Assembly: GCA_937922795.1 (NCBI GenBank)
Contig: CALAJK010000056.1
Span: 1-39,485, forward strand
Direction of reading: 5' to 3'
Length of the DNA stretch: 39,485 nucleotides
DNA from: an uncultured Anaerolineae bacterium
Lineage (GTDB): Bacteria; Chloroflexota; Anaerolineae; Aggregatilineales; Phototrophicaceae
Position numbers and translations under genes: made by a program
The notes under the pieces: model-generated
Told to the model about the DNA's origin: nothing
What the model saw: the letters and a program-made list of their open reading frames with translations, nothing else
Database searches by the model: none
In this document: positions 14,061-32,959 of the stretch, piece after piece
How positions within the stretch are numbered: the first letter of the stretch is position 1
Layout: every line of letters starts with the position of its first letter

Positions 14061-14077
14061 ATAGACAAAGTCGATAG

Positions 14078-14172
14078 CAGACCAGGGGAGTCCGCGCAAG
14101 TGGGCTGAGAGGGTGCGTAGCGCCGCACCGACCCTTTACCTGATCCGGATCATGCCGGCGTAGGGAGTGTTC
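14078..14172 (+). promoter_or_regulatory. TPP riboswitch (THI element)
   Basis: The aptamer carries both conserved TPP-binding halves: GGGCTGAGAGGG at 14102-14113 and ACCTGATCCGGATCATGCC at 14138-14156, followed by GGCGTAGGGA. It also has a variable GC-rich P3 arm between them. It binds thiamine pyrophosphate and represses thiamine uptake or synthesis genes. It sits 90 bp before thiB, so vitamin import is under product control. Confidence 0.96.
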
Positions 14173-14189
14173 ATTTAGGCTCGCTGAAT

Positions 14190-15305: not shown

Positions 15306-16966
15306 GGTTGGAACGGCTGGTAGGGCGCAGGCTCGTGCTCGCGCCCATCGTCTTCTTGGCGATCTTCTTCGTTTACCCATTAGTGTCAATTCTGATCGTC
15401 AGCCTGGCGCCGCAGGGCCAAATTGATCTGACCGGCTTCGTCACGTTGGTCACATCCAATTACTATCGCCAGACGCTGTGGTTTACGTTCTGGCAAGCGG
15501 CCGTCTCGACCCTGCTGACGCTGGCGTTGGCGCTGCCGGGCGCGTATGTGTTCGCACGTTTTAGCTTCCCCGGCAAGTCTGTGCTGCTGGCGCTGGCTAC
15601 GCTGCCGTTTCTGCTGCCGACTGTGGTGGTGGCGGCGGCGTTCAGCGCGCTGGTCGGCCCGCGCGGGGTGTTGAATCAGTGGTTGATGGACAGCTTACAA
15701 CTGACATCGCCGCCAGTCGAGTTAGAACGCACTCTGGCGATCATCCTGATCGTGCACGTGTTTTATAATTACGCAGTTGCTCTGCGCATCATCAGCACCT
15801 ATTGGCTGAATGTCAACCTGCGTCTGGAAGAGTCGGCGCGGGTGTTGGGGGCGTATGGCTGGCGGTTGTGGTGGGATGTGCGGCTGCCGCTCTTGCGCCC
15901 GGCCATTCTGGCGGCTGCCGCCCTGGTATTCGTTTTCACCTTCACCAGTTTCGGCGTGGTCTTGATTCTAGGAGGGCCGCGCTTCGCCACGTTAGAAGTG
16001 GAGATTTACCGGCAGACAGCGCATCTGTTCAACCTGCCGATGGCGGCGGCGCTGTCGCTGGTACAGATGGCCGTCATGTTCGCTATGATGTCGCTCTACA
16101 CGCGGCTGCAAAGACGGCTGGCGCTGGAGCGCGTGCCAGCGGAACAGACGCTGCGGCGTCCGCGCACTCCCTTACAATACGGGATCATCACGCTCAACTT
16201 AGTGTTGATGGCTGTACTGTTGTTCGCTCCGCTGGCGGCGTTAGTCGGGCGGTCATTTAGCGCGGGCGGGCAGTTCACACTGACTTATTACCAAATGCTG
16301 GCGACCAATCCGCGCGGCTCAGTGCTGTTCGTGCCGCCGCTGCAGGCTGTGACCAATTCACTGGTGTTCGCCGTGTTAACTACCGGCCTGGCGATCAGCC
16401 TGGGCGCGATCGCAGCTCATTGGTTGGCGCGGCGCGCCTCTCGCTGGACTGCCTGGCTCGACTCGCTGTTCATGCTGCCGCTGGCGACTAGCGCCGTCAC
16501 GTTGGGGTTTGGATACATCATCGCGCTGGATAGACCGCCGTTAAATCTGCGGACGTCGCCGGCGTTGATCGTGGCAGCGCACACATTGGTGGCGCTGCCG
16601 TTCGTTATGCGCAGCGTTCTGCCCGCCCTGCGGAGCATTACGCCCAGCATACAAGAGTCGGCGCGGGTGCTGGGCGCTTCGTCCTGGCAGGTGTGGCGCT
16701 TGATTGATCTGCCGCTCATCAGCCGAAGTTTGGTCACCGGGGCGATCTTCGCCTTCACCGTCAGTTTGGGGGAATTCGGCGCGTCTCTATTCGTCGCTCG
16801 GCCGAATACGCCGACGATGCCGATCGTCATCTACCGTTTGCTGGGGCAGCCCGGACCAGCCAATTATGGCCAGGCGCTGGCGATGAGCACGCTGCTGCTG
16901 GCGGCGGCTTGTGCGGCTTTCCTGCTTATTGAGCGTGTGCGCCGCGCCAACGGGAGCGAATTTTAA
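15302..16966 (+). CDS. thiP: Thiamine ABC transporter permease
   Basis: A membrane channel of 554 aa made of two fused BPD-type permease halves, each with about six helices. Each half has its own EAA loop for docking the ATPase: EESARVLGAYGWRLWWDVRL in the first and QESARVLGASSWQVWRLIDL in the second. This fused two-domain layout is typical of ThiP and of iron permeases. Context (TPP riboswitch, ThiB before, ATPase after) decides for thiamine. The ATG at 15302 overlaps the thiB stop by 4 bp, and the stop overlaps the thiQ start by 1 bp, so the three are translationally coupled. Confidence 0.94.
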   Translation: MRLERLVGRRLVLAPIVFLAIFFVYPLVSILIVSLAPQGQIDLTGFVTLVTSNYYRQTLWFTFWQAAVSTLLTLALALPGAYVFARFSFPGKSVLLALATLPFLLPTVVVAAAFSALVGPRGVLNQWLMDSLQLTSPPVELERTLAIILIVHVFYNYAVALRIISTYWLNVNLRLEESARVLGAYGWRLWWDVRLPLLRPAILAAAALVFVFTFTSFGVVLILGGPRFATLEVEIYRQTAHLFNLPMAAALSLVQMAVMFAMMSLYTRLQRRLALERVPAEQTLRRPRTPLQYGIITLNLVLMAVLLFAPLAALVGRSFSAGGQFTLTYYQMLATNPRGSVLFVPPLQAVTNSLVFAVLTTGLAISLGAIAAHWLARRASRWTAWLDSLFMLPLATSAVTLGFGYIIALDRPPLNLRTSPALIVAAHTLVALPFVMRSVLPALRSITPSIQESARVLGASSWQVWRLIDLPLISRSLVTGAIFAFTVSLGEFGASLFVARPNTPTMPIVIYRLLGQPGPANYGQALAMSTLLLAAACAAFLLIERVRRANGSEF

Positions 16967-18027
16967 TGCTGGCAGTTCGAAGCGTCATCGTCAACTATGA
17001 AGGGCAGCCGGTGCTGCGCGGCATTGACCTAGAGATTGCGCACGGGCAGATTATGTGTCTTTTGGGGCCGAGCGGCGGCGGCAAAAGCACACTGCTGCGG
17101 GTGATCGCCGGCCTGGAAGCAGTGGAAGCGGGTGATGTCCTGTATGAGGGGCAGTCGCTGGCCGGGGTGCCGGTGCACCGCCGAGGCTTTGGCTTGATGT
17201 TCCAGGATTTCGCCTTGTTTCCTCACTTGAACGTGGCTGACAACGTGGGCTTCGGCCTCAAAATGCAGGGGCTGAATCGCGATGAGCGGCGGCGGCGCGT
17301 TCAGGAGGCGCTGGCTCTAGTAGGGCTGTCGGGCTTTGAACAGCGCGATGTCACTCGCCTGTCCGGAGGCGAGCGGCAGCGTGTGGCGCTGGCTCGCAGC
17401 CTGGCGCCCCGACCGCGCCTGCTGATGCTCGATGAGCCCTTAGGTTCGCTGGATGTGGTGCTGCGCGAGCGTCTGGTGGAAGAAGTCCGTTCGATCATCA
17501 AGCAGGCCGGCCTGACGGCTCTGTATGTGACGCATGATCAGCGCGAAGCATTCGCCATCGCTGACTCCATCGCGATACTCAACGCCGGCGTCATTGAGCA
17601 GGTGGGGGAGCCGGAGGCGATCTACCGCCGCCCCGCGACCATTTTTACCGCGCGCTTTCTGGGGCTGCATAACGTGCTGCCGATCATGAGCTGGCAGGGT
17701 CAGCAGGCTGAGACGATCGTGGGTTCGTTCGCGATCCAACCGCCAGCGGAAGCGGTGCTGCTGCATCCTGATGGCCTGAGGCCTTGCGCCGACTCGGACT
17801 CTGGAGCGATTGCCGGACAGGTGACGGCGCGGACATTTCTGGGCGATGTGTATCATGTGCAGCTAAGGCACAGCAGCGATTTTGAACTGCTGCTGCGCTG
17901 GAACAGTGCCGATGGCGCGCCGCCCGGCGTGGGCGATCTACTGGCAGTGAAGCCGAACGCGGGATCCTGTATTGGGCTGCGCGAGCAGCCGCATGGCAGT
18001 AGAAGCGCTGTCGGTTTCGTGTCATAA
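16966..18027 (+). CDS. thiQ: Thiamine ABC transporter ATP-binding protein with C-terminal TOBE-like extension
   Basis: ABC ATPase energising thiamine import. Walker A is GPSGGGKST at 34-42, Q-loop FQDFALFPHLNV, signature LSGGERQ at 132-138, Walker B LLMLDEP at 152-158 and H-loop His190. At 353 aa it is about 120 residues longer than E. coli ThiQ. The extra part (about 240-353) looks like the TOBE domain of PotA/FbpC-type importers (TARTFLGDVYHVQL). TAATG overlaps the thiP stop. The family alone would also allow iron or polyamine; the riboswitch and ThiB argue for thiamine. Confidence 0.9.
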   Translation: MLAVRSVIVNYEGQPVLRGIDLEIAHGQIMCLLGPSGGGKSTLLRVIAGLEAVEAGDVLYEGQSLAGVPVHRRGFGLMFQDFALFPHLNVADNVGFGLKMQGLNRDERRRRVQEALALVGLSGFEQRDVTRLSGGERQRVALARSLAPRPRLLMLDEPLGSLDVVLRERLVEEVRSIIKQAGLTALYVTHDQREAFAIADSIAILNAGVIEQVGEPEAIYRRPATIFTARFLGLHNVLPIMSWQGQQAETIVGSFAIQPPAEAVLLHPDGLRPCADSDSGAIAGQVTARTFLGDVYHVQLRHSSDFELLLRWNSADGAPPGVGDLLAVKPNAGSCIGLREQPHGSRSAVGFVS

Positions 18028-22630: not shown

Positions 22631-22659
22631 TTGACAGCCTCGGCGCGTCACCGTACAAT
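22631..22659 (+). promoter_or_regulatory. Promoter of the tRNA-Arg gene
   Basis: Perfect TTGACA (22631-22636), 17-bp spacer, TACAAT (22654-22659). Predicted start about 3-4 nt before the mature tRNA 5' end. Confidence 0.85.
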
Positions 22660-22669
22660 GCCAGCAGTC

Positions 22670-22997
22670 GCCCCCGTAGCTCAGGGGATAGAGCAGCGGT
22701 CTTCAAGAGGAGCCTTCTGCGTGGAAGACGGCGGTGCACTGTCATCGGGCGGCGCTGCCGTCGTCGTAAAGGCTGGAACCGCAGAAGAGGAGCAGGCTGT
22801 ATCGGCGGAAGTCGTCCGGCTGAAGCAGCCGCGATCACGCCGAGCAAACCAGAGACAGCGGGATGCGTAGAGACTGTACGCCTGCCGCCTGAGACGGCGA
22901 AGACACAGTCCAGCCAGCAAGCTCAACGTGAGTGGTCGTGGAAACACGATGCTGGATGCTAAACCGTAGGTCGGGGGTTCGAATCCCTCCGGGGGCG
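22670..22997 (+). tRNA. tRNA-Arg(UCU), interrupted by a group I intron
   Basis: The exons are 22670-22703 and 22959-22997 and join into a 73-nt cloverleaf. The acceptor GCCCCCG pairs with CGGGGGC, with discriminator G. The D-arm is GCTC/GAGC. The anticodon stem is GCGGT/ACCGT with loop CTTCTAA, giving anticodon UCU (decodes AGA/AGG). The T-arm has loop TTCGAAT. CCA is not encoded. The interruption lies between U34 and C35, inside the anticodon. No functional cloverleaf forms without removing the insert. Just downstream a weak stem (CGCTC ... GAGCG) followed by TTTT at about 22996-23033 may terminate transcription. Confidence 0.93.
22704..22958 (+). ncRNA. Group I intron (IC3-like) in tRNA-Arg(UCU)
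   Basis: A 255-nt self-splicing-type intron without an endonuclease ORF. It follows a U (U34) and ends in G (22958), as group I introns require. The core R and S elements are clear: GCGTAGAGACTGTACG at 22865-22880 and GAAGACACAGTCC at 22899-22911, close to the Azoarcus tRNA-Ile intron. P7 is GACTGT (22872-22877) with ACAGTC (22905-22910). P8 is GCCG (22884-22887) with CGGC (22895-22898). A GAAA-tetraloop hairpin (22936-22949) lies in the P9 region. P1 can form between the 5' exon TCTT and GAGG at 22707-22710. Confidence 0.9.
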
Positions 22998-31624: not shown

Positions 31625-32959
31625 TTAGCGCCCGACCATTTCGCTCTCCGGCTTGTCGTCCACGGCTGCAGGGTCGATGGGCTGGCGTTTGATGTGCGCT
31701 CCAAGCGCACGTAGACGTTCATCCACGCGTTCATAACCGCGATCAATCTGCTGCACGTTGAAGATGCGCGTCTCCCCGCGCGCAGCCAAAGCCGCCAGCA
31801 GTAGGGCCATGCCGGCGCGAATGTCTGGACTGGTAATATACGGCAAACCGTGAAGCGCCGTCGGTCCCTGAACGAGTACTCGATGCGGATCACACAGCGT
31901 GATGCGCGCTCCCATCCTCACTAGCTTATCCGTGAAAAAGAACCGGCTCTCATACATCCAGTCATGGAACAAAACTGCGCCGGCGCTCTGGGTGGCGATC
32001 ACCAGGGCGATGCTCATCAAATCGGGCGGGAAAGCCGGCCAGGGCTGAGCCTTGATGATGGGGATGCGGTTGCCCAGGTCGGGGATGACGGTCAGCGATT
32101 GGCCGGCGGGCACGAAGATATCTGAGCCGCGCGTCTCCCAAACCACCCCAAGGCGCTCGAAGGTGAGGGCGATGTTGTCGAGATGCTGGGGATCTGCCTC
32201 GCGCAGCAGCAGTTGACCGCCAGTCATGACTGCCGCACCGATCAAGCTGCCGACTTCCATGTAGTCAGCGCCGACGCGCGCTTCGCCGCCGTGCAGGCGT
32301 TCGACGCCCTGGATGGTCAAGCGATTAGTGCCGATGCCGTCGATCTGCGCGCCAAGATCGTTCAGCATCTGGCACAGGTTCTGCACATGCGGTTCGCAGG
32401 CGGCGTTGCGCAAAATGGTCGTCCCGCGCGCTAAAACGGCCGCCATGACTGCATTTTCCGTGGCAGTGACGCTAGCCTCGTTCAGCAAGATATCGGCGCC
32501 GGATAGTCTCTCCGTCTGGAAGCGCAGCATGTCATGGCGCTGCTCGATGCGCGCGCCCAGCCGCGTCAAGGCCAGCGCGTGCGTATCTAATCGCCGCTCA
32601 CCGATGCTGTCCCCGCCTGGGGTGGGCAGGTCTACGCGCCCCATCCGCGCCAGCATGGGTCCAGCGAAGACAATGCTGGCGCGCACCTTCTGCGCTAGTT
32701 CTGGGGCGATGGCTGTTGTCATGAGGTTGTTTGCGTGCACGAGCAGGACGTTTGAATCCTGCCATTCTACGCGCGCGCCGAGCTGGCGCATGATCTCGAT
32801 GATGACTCGGACGTCACCGATGTCGGGTACGTTGTGCAGGAACACCGGCTCATCAGTCAGCAAACAAGCTGGAATCATTTTGAGGGCAGCATTTTTATTG
32901 CCACCGACTTTCAACTCGCCGTTCAAGGGATATCCGCCCTCAATGATGAACTGCTGCAT
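31625..32959 (-). CDS. murA: UDP-N-acetylglucosamine 1-carboxyvinyltransferase, Asp-type active site
   Basis: MurA transfers enolpyruvate from PEP to UDP-GlcNAc, the first committed step of peptidoglycan synthesis. The 444-aa protein has the family N-terminus GGNKNAALKMIPACLLT and the inside-out barrel repeats. The catalytic-loop position normally held by Cys (C115 in E. coli) is Asp117 here (PTPGGDSIGERRLDTH). In M. tuberculosis and Chlamydia the same change gives natural fosfomycin resistance. It lies 6 bp after the SAM hydrolase gene and is probably cotranscribed with it. Confidence 0.94.
   Translation of the reverse strand: MQQFIIEGGYPLNGELKVGGNKNAALKMIPACLLTDEPVFLHNVPDIGDVRVIIEIMRQLGARVEWQDSNVLLVHANNLMTTAIAPELAQKVRASIVFAGPMLARMGRVDLPTPGGDSIGERRLDTHALALTRLGARIEQRHDMLRFQTERLSGADILLNEASVTATENAVMAAVLARGTTILRNAACEPHVQNLCQMLNDLGAQIDGIGTNRLTIQGVERLHGGEARVGADYMEVGSLIGAAVMTGGQLLLREADPQHLDNIALTFERLGVVWETRGSDIFVPAGQSLTVIPDLGNRIPIIKAQPWPAFPPDLMSIALVIATQSAGAVLFHDWMYESRFFFTDKLVRMGARITLCDPHRVLVQGPTALHGLPYITSPDIRAGMALLLAALAARGETRIFNVQQIDRGYERVDERLRALGAHIKRQPIDPAAVDDKPESEMVGR

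Follow-up and report, generated by a model that had tools for sequence, protein, structure and literature searches.

A tRNA-Arg(UCU) gene of an uncultured Anaerolineae bacterium with a predicted group I intron in its anticodon, and related introns in bacterial and viral contigs

The DNA analysed here, a stretch of 39,485 nucleotides from an uncultured Anaerolineae bacterium (referred to as the window), contains two halves of a tRNA gene that are separated by an insert within the anticodon. This locus raises the question of what the insert is, whether the gene can still yield a tRNA, and where the insert came from. We consider it very probable that a group I intron, which encodes no endonuclease of its own, resides in an apparently single-copy tRNA-Arg(UCU) gene, and that it would splice itself out of the transcript to restore the UCU anticodon.

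All features of the gene are located on the forward strand. The 5' exon (22670–22703) ends with U34, as deduced by means of ARAGORN from the joined exons and from intronless orthologues; the 3' exon (22959–22997) extends from C35 to the discriminator G73, CCA not being encoded. The joined halves of 34 nt and 39 nt constitute a canonical 73-nt tRNA-Arg(UCU) according to ARAGORN, and the UCU join scored best among the joins tried for this locus. The insert comprises 255 nt, is preceded by a U, and has a G as its last base. With a C at both ends, the position of the junction could be shifted by one base. It was set between U34 and C35, because only this placement has a U before the insert and a G at its end, and because the intronless alleles of the genus read UCU. 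In intron mode, ARAGORN called a tRNA-Ser(GCU); this call was rejected, since it misplaces the junction by one base and the intronless alleles read UCU. The split tRNA-Arg(UCU) gene is confirmed, and a preliminary description of this DNA had located the two halves and the 255-nt insert between U34 and C35 correctly to the base. A consensus scan detected a sigma-70-type promoter-like site, TTGACA-17-TACAAT, at 22631–22659, which ends 10 nt before the tRNA (11 of 12 consensus matches versus a mean of 0.1 in shuffles) and may serve as the promoter of the gene. A terminator-like site was looked for downstream of the split gene and was not found.

Two further RNA candidates were noted elsewhere in the window. 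A TPP riboswitch (14074–14183; 58.4 bits, above the Rfam cut-off) lies upstream of open reading frames, among them one for an ABC transporter ATPase (16966–18027), which perhaps constitute a thiamine uptake operon. At 31671–31751, ARAGORN reports a tRNA-Trp where the Rfam tRNA model finds none; this candidate overlaps an open reading frame on the opposite strand and is likely a false positive.

Genomes of the same genus were used to deduce the state of the gene without the insert. Among 17 genomes, 11 contain one near-full-length copy with 92–97% identity to the joined tRNA, and at each of these loci ARAGORN identified a tRNA-Arg(UCU) without interruption. In nine of the 11, the intronless tRNA is flanked by the same gyrB-type and BTAD-domain genes; of the remaining two loci, one lacks both genes, and the other has the downstream gene only, its contig starting 342 bases ahead of the tRNA. 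The split gene occurs in genomes G000 and G001, and no tRNA-Arg(UCU) match of similar quality was found in G008, G009, G011, and G015. The intronless alleles in 11 of the 17 genomes, nine of them between the same flanking genes, indicate a precise insertion. Homologous introns are present in G001 and G036, at the same bond and next to the same neighbours.

To which class does the insert belong? The preliminary description had named the Rfam model RF00028 as a check and the lack of a match as a refutation. RF00028 did not match the intron of the window even at E 10, and it gave no match when the window and the whole genome of the organism were searched. The check fails because RF00028 misses this intron; note that a match to RF00028 is a detector and not a defining feature of group I introns. 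The model does match the related loci L034 (E 3.9e-10) and L048 (E 3e-07), and altogether 10 of the 20 relative loci given; four exceed the cut-off, none of them placed at the Arg(UCU) bond. None of the 14 Arg(UCU) loci joined at U34|C35 that were submitted to Rfam reaches this cut-off, the best one scoring 49.3 of 50 bits; some relatives at this site do match the model below it. Two covariance models were built, namely R1 from the window intron and two relatives, and R2 from 23 introns of the class outside the window's clade. R2 matches positions 22789–22958 with 115.6 bits (E 1.5e-27) and ends on the terminal G, although neither this test nor those for covariation are wholly independent, since the members of R2 were collected and aligned by means of R1, and the window intron is part of R1. 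The next-best R2 match in the window has 4.2 bits. The sole other R1 match in the genome of the organism (16.8 bits, E 0.065) is taken as chance. Judged by covariance model and covariation, the insert is a group I intron. That such an intron splits tRNA-Arg(UCU), as proposed in the preliminary description, is borne out by the joined exons, the intronless alleles, the R2 match, and the covariation of the core.

The intron (22704–22958; models R1 and R2, covariation) lacks a homing endonuclease gene: there is no open reading frame of at least 100 amino acids on the intron strand within the 255 nt. Its first nine positions (22704–22712) would form the P1 loop and the guide, with exon CUU pairing to GAG at 22710–22712 and a U-1·G wobble at the splice site. 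GGAG is present in all six sequences read, including that of the window, and a CUU/GAG P1 fits all six; a second register of P1, without the U·G in the window, fits as well. P2 (CUUCUGCG/CGCAGAAG) and the peripheral P2 domain were assigned to 22714–22787 from sequence and folds. In L032 and L033, the pairing of P2 is kept with other letters, as judged by eye. The 5' strand of P3 together with P4, P5, and P6 (22792–22866) was deduced from the R2 alignment and covariation helices 1–4. It is followed by the 5' strand of P7, GACUGU, which is the R element (22872–22877; covariation helix 5), by the 3' strand of P3 and P8 (22880–22899), where P8 is CGCC/GGCG, and by the 3' strand of P7, ACAGUC, which is the S element (22905–22910); the latter two segments are based on the R2 alignment and covariation. 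The P9 domain (22915–22954; covariation helices 7–10) contains the GAAA-capped stem UCGUG-GAAA-CACGA, and the terminal G (22958) is the final base of the R1 and R2 matches. All elements listed earlier for this intron, i.e. the U before the 5' splice site, the terminal G, the R/S-type elements, P8, and the GAAA-capped stem, are present.

In the alignment A3 of 42 introns, which was fitted to the R1 structure except for P7, 94.5% of the cells pair, compared to 73.2% after shuffling and 28–47% with slid partners. Both sides vary in 33 of 42 pairs. The covariation supports the core helices P3, P4, P6, P7, and P8 (helices 1, 2, 4, 5, and 6). P7 covaries albeit absent from the alignment model; for example, one of its pairs is AU in 22, GC in 13, and UA in 5 cases. 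Furthermore, every cell of the GAAA stem that holds letters is paired in the 42 sequences. The 6-bp P7 of the preliminary description stands in so far as GACUGU/ACAGUC exists, but its sixth pair is not conserved: of 41 aligned introns, among which that of the window was counted, 22 leave it unpaired. The z-score of the predicted fold is only -2.66; that the structure exceeds chance is indicated instead by the R2 match. The core is missing from the predicted whole-molecule fold of the gene; P3–P7 is a pseudoknot, which the folding program used cannot draw.

These elements suggest the following course of events. The split gene would be transcribed from its own promoter, and the intron would fold into a core of P3–P8 and P4–P6. 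Exon CUU, aligned with the internal GAG guide in the presumed register, would constitute P1. Two guanosine-started transesterifications would then remove the intron and join U34 to C35, such that the UCU anticodon is restored. It is plausible to assume from the sequence that the window intron is self-splicing. We presume that its core letters and the CUU/GAG P1 resemble those of the introns in Azoarcus tRNA-Ile and Anabaena tRNA-Leu(UAA), which belong to subgroup IC3; the host tRNAs of these introns differ from the tRNA-Arg(UCU) of the window.

The importance of splicing depends on whether the organism possesses another tRNA of this kind. In its assembly, which comprises 3.61 Mb in 127 contigs and is 85% complete, no second tRNA-Arg(UCU) was found among 39 other tRNA genes, the arginine anticodons being UCG, ACG, CCG, and CCU only, although this search could have missed another tRNA gene if its intron differs from R1. 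Within the draft, the previous assumption that this is the only AGA-reading tRNA holds, and each of the 11 intronless genus-mates shows one such gene. Decoding of AGA would thus depend on removal of the intron. Of the 446 arginine codons in 12 long open reading frames picked from the window, 5 are AGA, and any dependence on splicing therefore concerns a rare codon.

Alternatively, the locus might be the relic of a dead tRNA gene, whose intron is inactive and which yields no tRNA, while AGA is read by a tRNA encoded outside the assembled 85%. The draft state of the assembly, the rarity of AGA, and the missing terminator-like site would be compatible with a relic, and the case for a live gene is made from DNA. 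Such a relic is nonetheless improbable: the joined tRNA has remained highly similar to its 11 intronless orthologues (92–97% identity), the core helices of the window intron are intact, a strong promoter-like site precedes the gene, and one such gene is seen in each intronless genome. It is even harder to believe that the insert is removed by proteins, e.g. by an archaeal-type tRNA endonuclease, or that it is an insertion other than an intron; to our knowledge, no archaeal-type tRNA endonuclease system exists in bacteria, which counts against removal by proteins. Enzymatically spliced tRNA introns are also found in the anticodon loop, according to PMC4033280 at 37/38, whereas the present insert is located at 34/35 and contains, within its 255 nt, a complete group I core that the covariance model recognizes at the E-value given above. 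A self-splicing group I intron is consequently the explanation that we retain.

R1 was used to determine how common such introns are among related bacteria. In the family, 98 genomes were searched, of which 6 had a match at E ≤1e-6 and 17 at E 0.1. The model further matched 14 of 154 genomes of the order at E 1e-4 and, at E 1e-6, 34 of 396 genomes in the sample of the class and 3 of 400 in that of the phylum; these sets overlap and include the window. Hosts were examined at 42 of the 48 model matches in order and class, namely those with loci, including the window. The best-scoring join with a U before the intron and a G at its end was chosen, and the joins can therefore not test the criterion of a preceding U and a terminal G. 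A tRNA-Arg(UCU) interrupted at UU|CU is the host in 15 of the 42 loci. In 18 loci, the same model finds introns of the class in a tRNA(CAU), where the insertion is at U33|C34 instead. The anticodon is also split in tRNA-Tyr(GUA) (three loci, L097, L102, and L105; best join U35|A36), in tRNA-Val(UAC) (two loci, L099 and L114; best join U34|A35), and in tRNA-Lys(CUU) (one locus, L113; the join U35|U36 wins only narrowly). For L087, L096, and L110, the join was not assigned. The model match L110 falls inside a gene for 23S rRNA that RF00028 matches twice, so the reach of the model extends beyond tRNA genes. At L087 (1420–1706), RF00028 scores 63.3 bits in a tRNA-Arg gene, no U34|C35 join was obtained, and the locus is possibly another insertion site.

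A DNA pattern for 3' junctions of this type identified at least 115 loci in genome contigs. Of the 115 listed, 103 join to tRNA-Arg(UCU) and stem from at least eight phyla; in viral contigs, the same is true for 59 of 64 pattern loci. Because the pattern was built for Arg(UCU), the numbers demonstrate the existence of such introns and not how often they prefer this host. The 103 Arg(UCU) loci listed from genome contigs belong to Pseudomonadota (57), Bacillota (15), Bacteroidota (15), Acidobacteriota (5), Omnitrophota (3), Chloroflexota (2), Thermodesulfobacteriota (1), and Myxococcota (1); four have no phylum given. Introns at the same bond thus recur in many bacteria and in viral contigs, and the window intron is a further case of a recurrent kind and no exception.

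For giant sulfur bacteria, the original source on tRNA-Arg-TCT genes with putative introns of group I is reportedly MacGregor 2013a. PMC4853749 lists interrupted tRNA-Arg-TCT genes with putative group I introns for Beggiatoa BOGUAY and Candidatus Thiomargarita nelsonii. These cases share with the window the UCU host, the putative group I intron, and the absence of the tRNA from the annotated genes; they differ in belonging to giant sulfur bacteria, and the comparison covers the host tRNA, the presumed type of intron, and the annotation. This precedent and the recurrence within the order and class (15 of 42 loci), across further phyla, and among viral contigs do not support the supposition that the UCU host is unusual. 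tRNAscan-SE 2.0 was not designed for such insertions, and 36 genomes have introns in fMet or Ile2 genes (PMC8450103); some tRNAs of 36 circularized genomes, one of them from Chloroflexi, have group I introns (PMC8172020). Our literature search yielded no paper that deals specifically with introns in the tRNA genes of Chloroflexota. The split gene was missed by ARAGORN without the intron option and by the Rfam tRNA and intron models. As usual tool modes do not report the gene, a tRNA-Arg(UCU) that is seemingly absent from a genome may be interrupted.

The R1 scores were further used to compare the introns. Those of the window's clade (178–206 bits) are high by construction, since R1 was built from this clade. 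Outside of it, 11 loci reach at least 100 bits, and all are among the 64 viral contigs (154, 145, 121, 120, 114, 114, 110.5, 108, 107, 105, and 103 bits). The maximum is 99.3 bits across the 115 genome-contig loci listed and 87.9 bits in the remaining 39 loci from the family, the order, and the class. Among the loci examined, introns of viral contigs are thus the nearest relatives of the window's clade, which is a new observation; closer cellular kin may exist beyond the genome-contig matches listed. For example, the Arg(UCU) introns L085, L088, L116, L245, and L275 share the host and the bond UU|CU with the window, and their R1 scores are lower than those of its clade. In the neighbourhood of L245, there are tRNA genes and an open reading frame matching phage RNA polymerase families. 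A match of L245 to two Listeria phage records was rejected, as it covers 31 bases only and its coordinates are those of the tRNA 3' exon and not of the intron. Twelve of the 59 viral Arg(UCU) introns (L231–L294) exceed 550 nt, and L237 and L289 have a second intron match (14 viral loci checked).

A first tree was calculated from 91 introns of 89 loci, including 14 of the 64 viral loci, and a second one from 25 rows of the first; 5 of the 11 best viral loci are outside both trees. In the first and second tree, respectively, the window's clade has a support of 97 and 100/97, and L245 adjoins it with a support of 90 and 91/88. A topology that groups 12 cellular Arg(UCU) introns, including the window's clade, in a single clade separate from the viral introns is not rejected (AU p 0.08); this group was named after the first tree had been seen.

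An HNH_3 open reading frame occurs in 9 of the 11 best viral loci, in L251 by the same translation as in L242, and was not found in the other two, L275 and L293. The long tRNA introns L091, L097, L113, and L115 of the same class, in tRNA-Arg, Tyr, and Lys genes, encode PD-(D/E)XK endonucleases (PF11645) in all four cases given. The P2 domain was searched for the relic of an HNH start, a motif that had been noticed before the test was designed. The window shows no such signal (p 0.64), G001 (p 0.03) and G036 (p 0.05) show a weak one, and the viral L275 a clear one (0 of 2000 shuffles); L293 and the ten introns used as controls show none. DNA searches of plasmids and phage records with the window intron gave no match. 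We tentatively propose, with somewhat less than even confidence, that the window intron derives from an intron with an HNH endonuclease in a phage-encoded tRNA-Arg(UCU), that phages carrying a tRNA for AGA seed bacterial genes, and that the endonuclease gene is then lost.

A phage route of spread is plausible, and the many introns at the same site in bacteria and in viral contigs make the route of spread testable. The interest of the window intron lies mainly in the breadth of its family and in the viral side of it.
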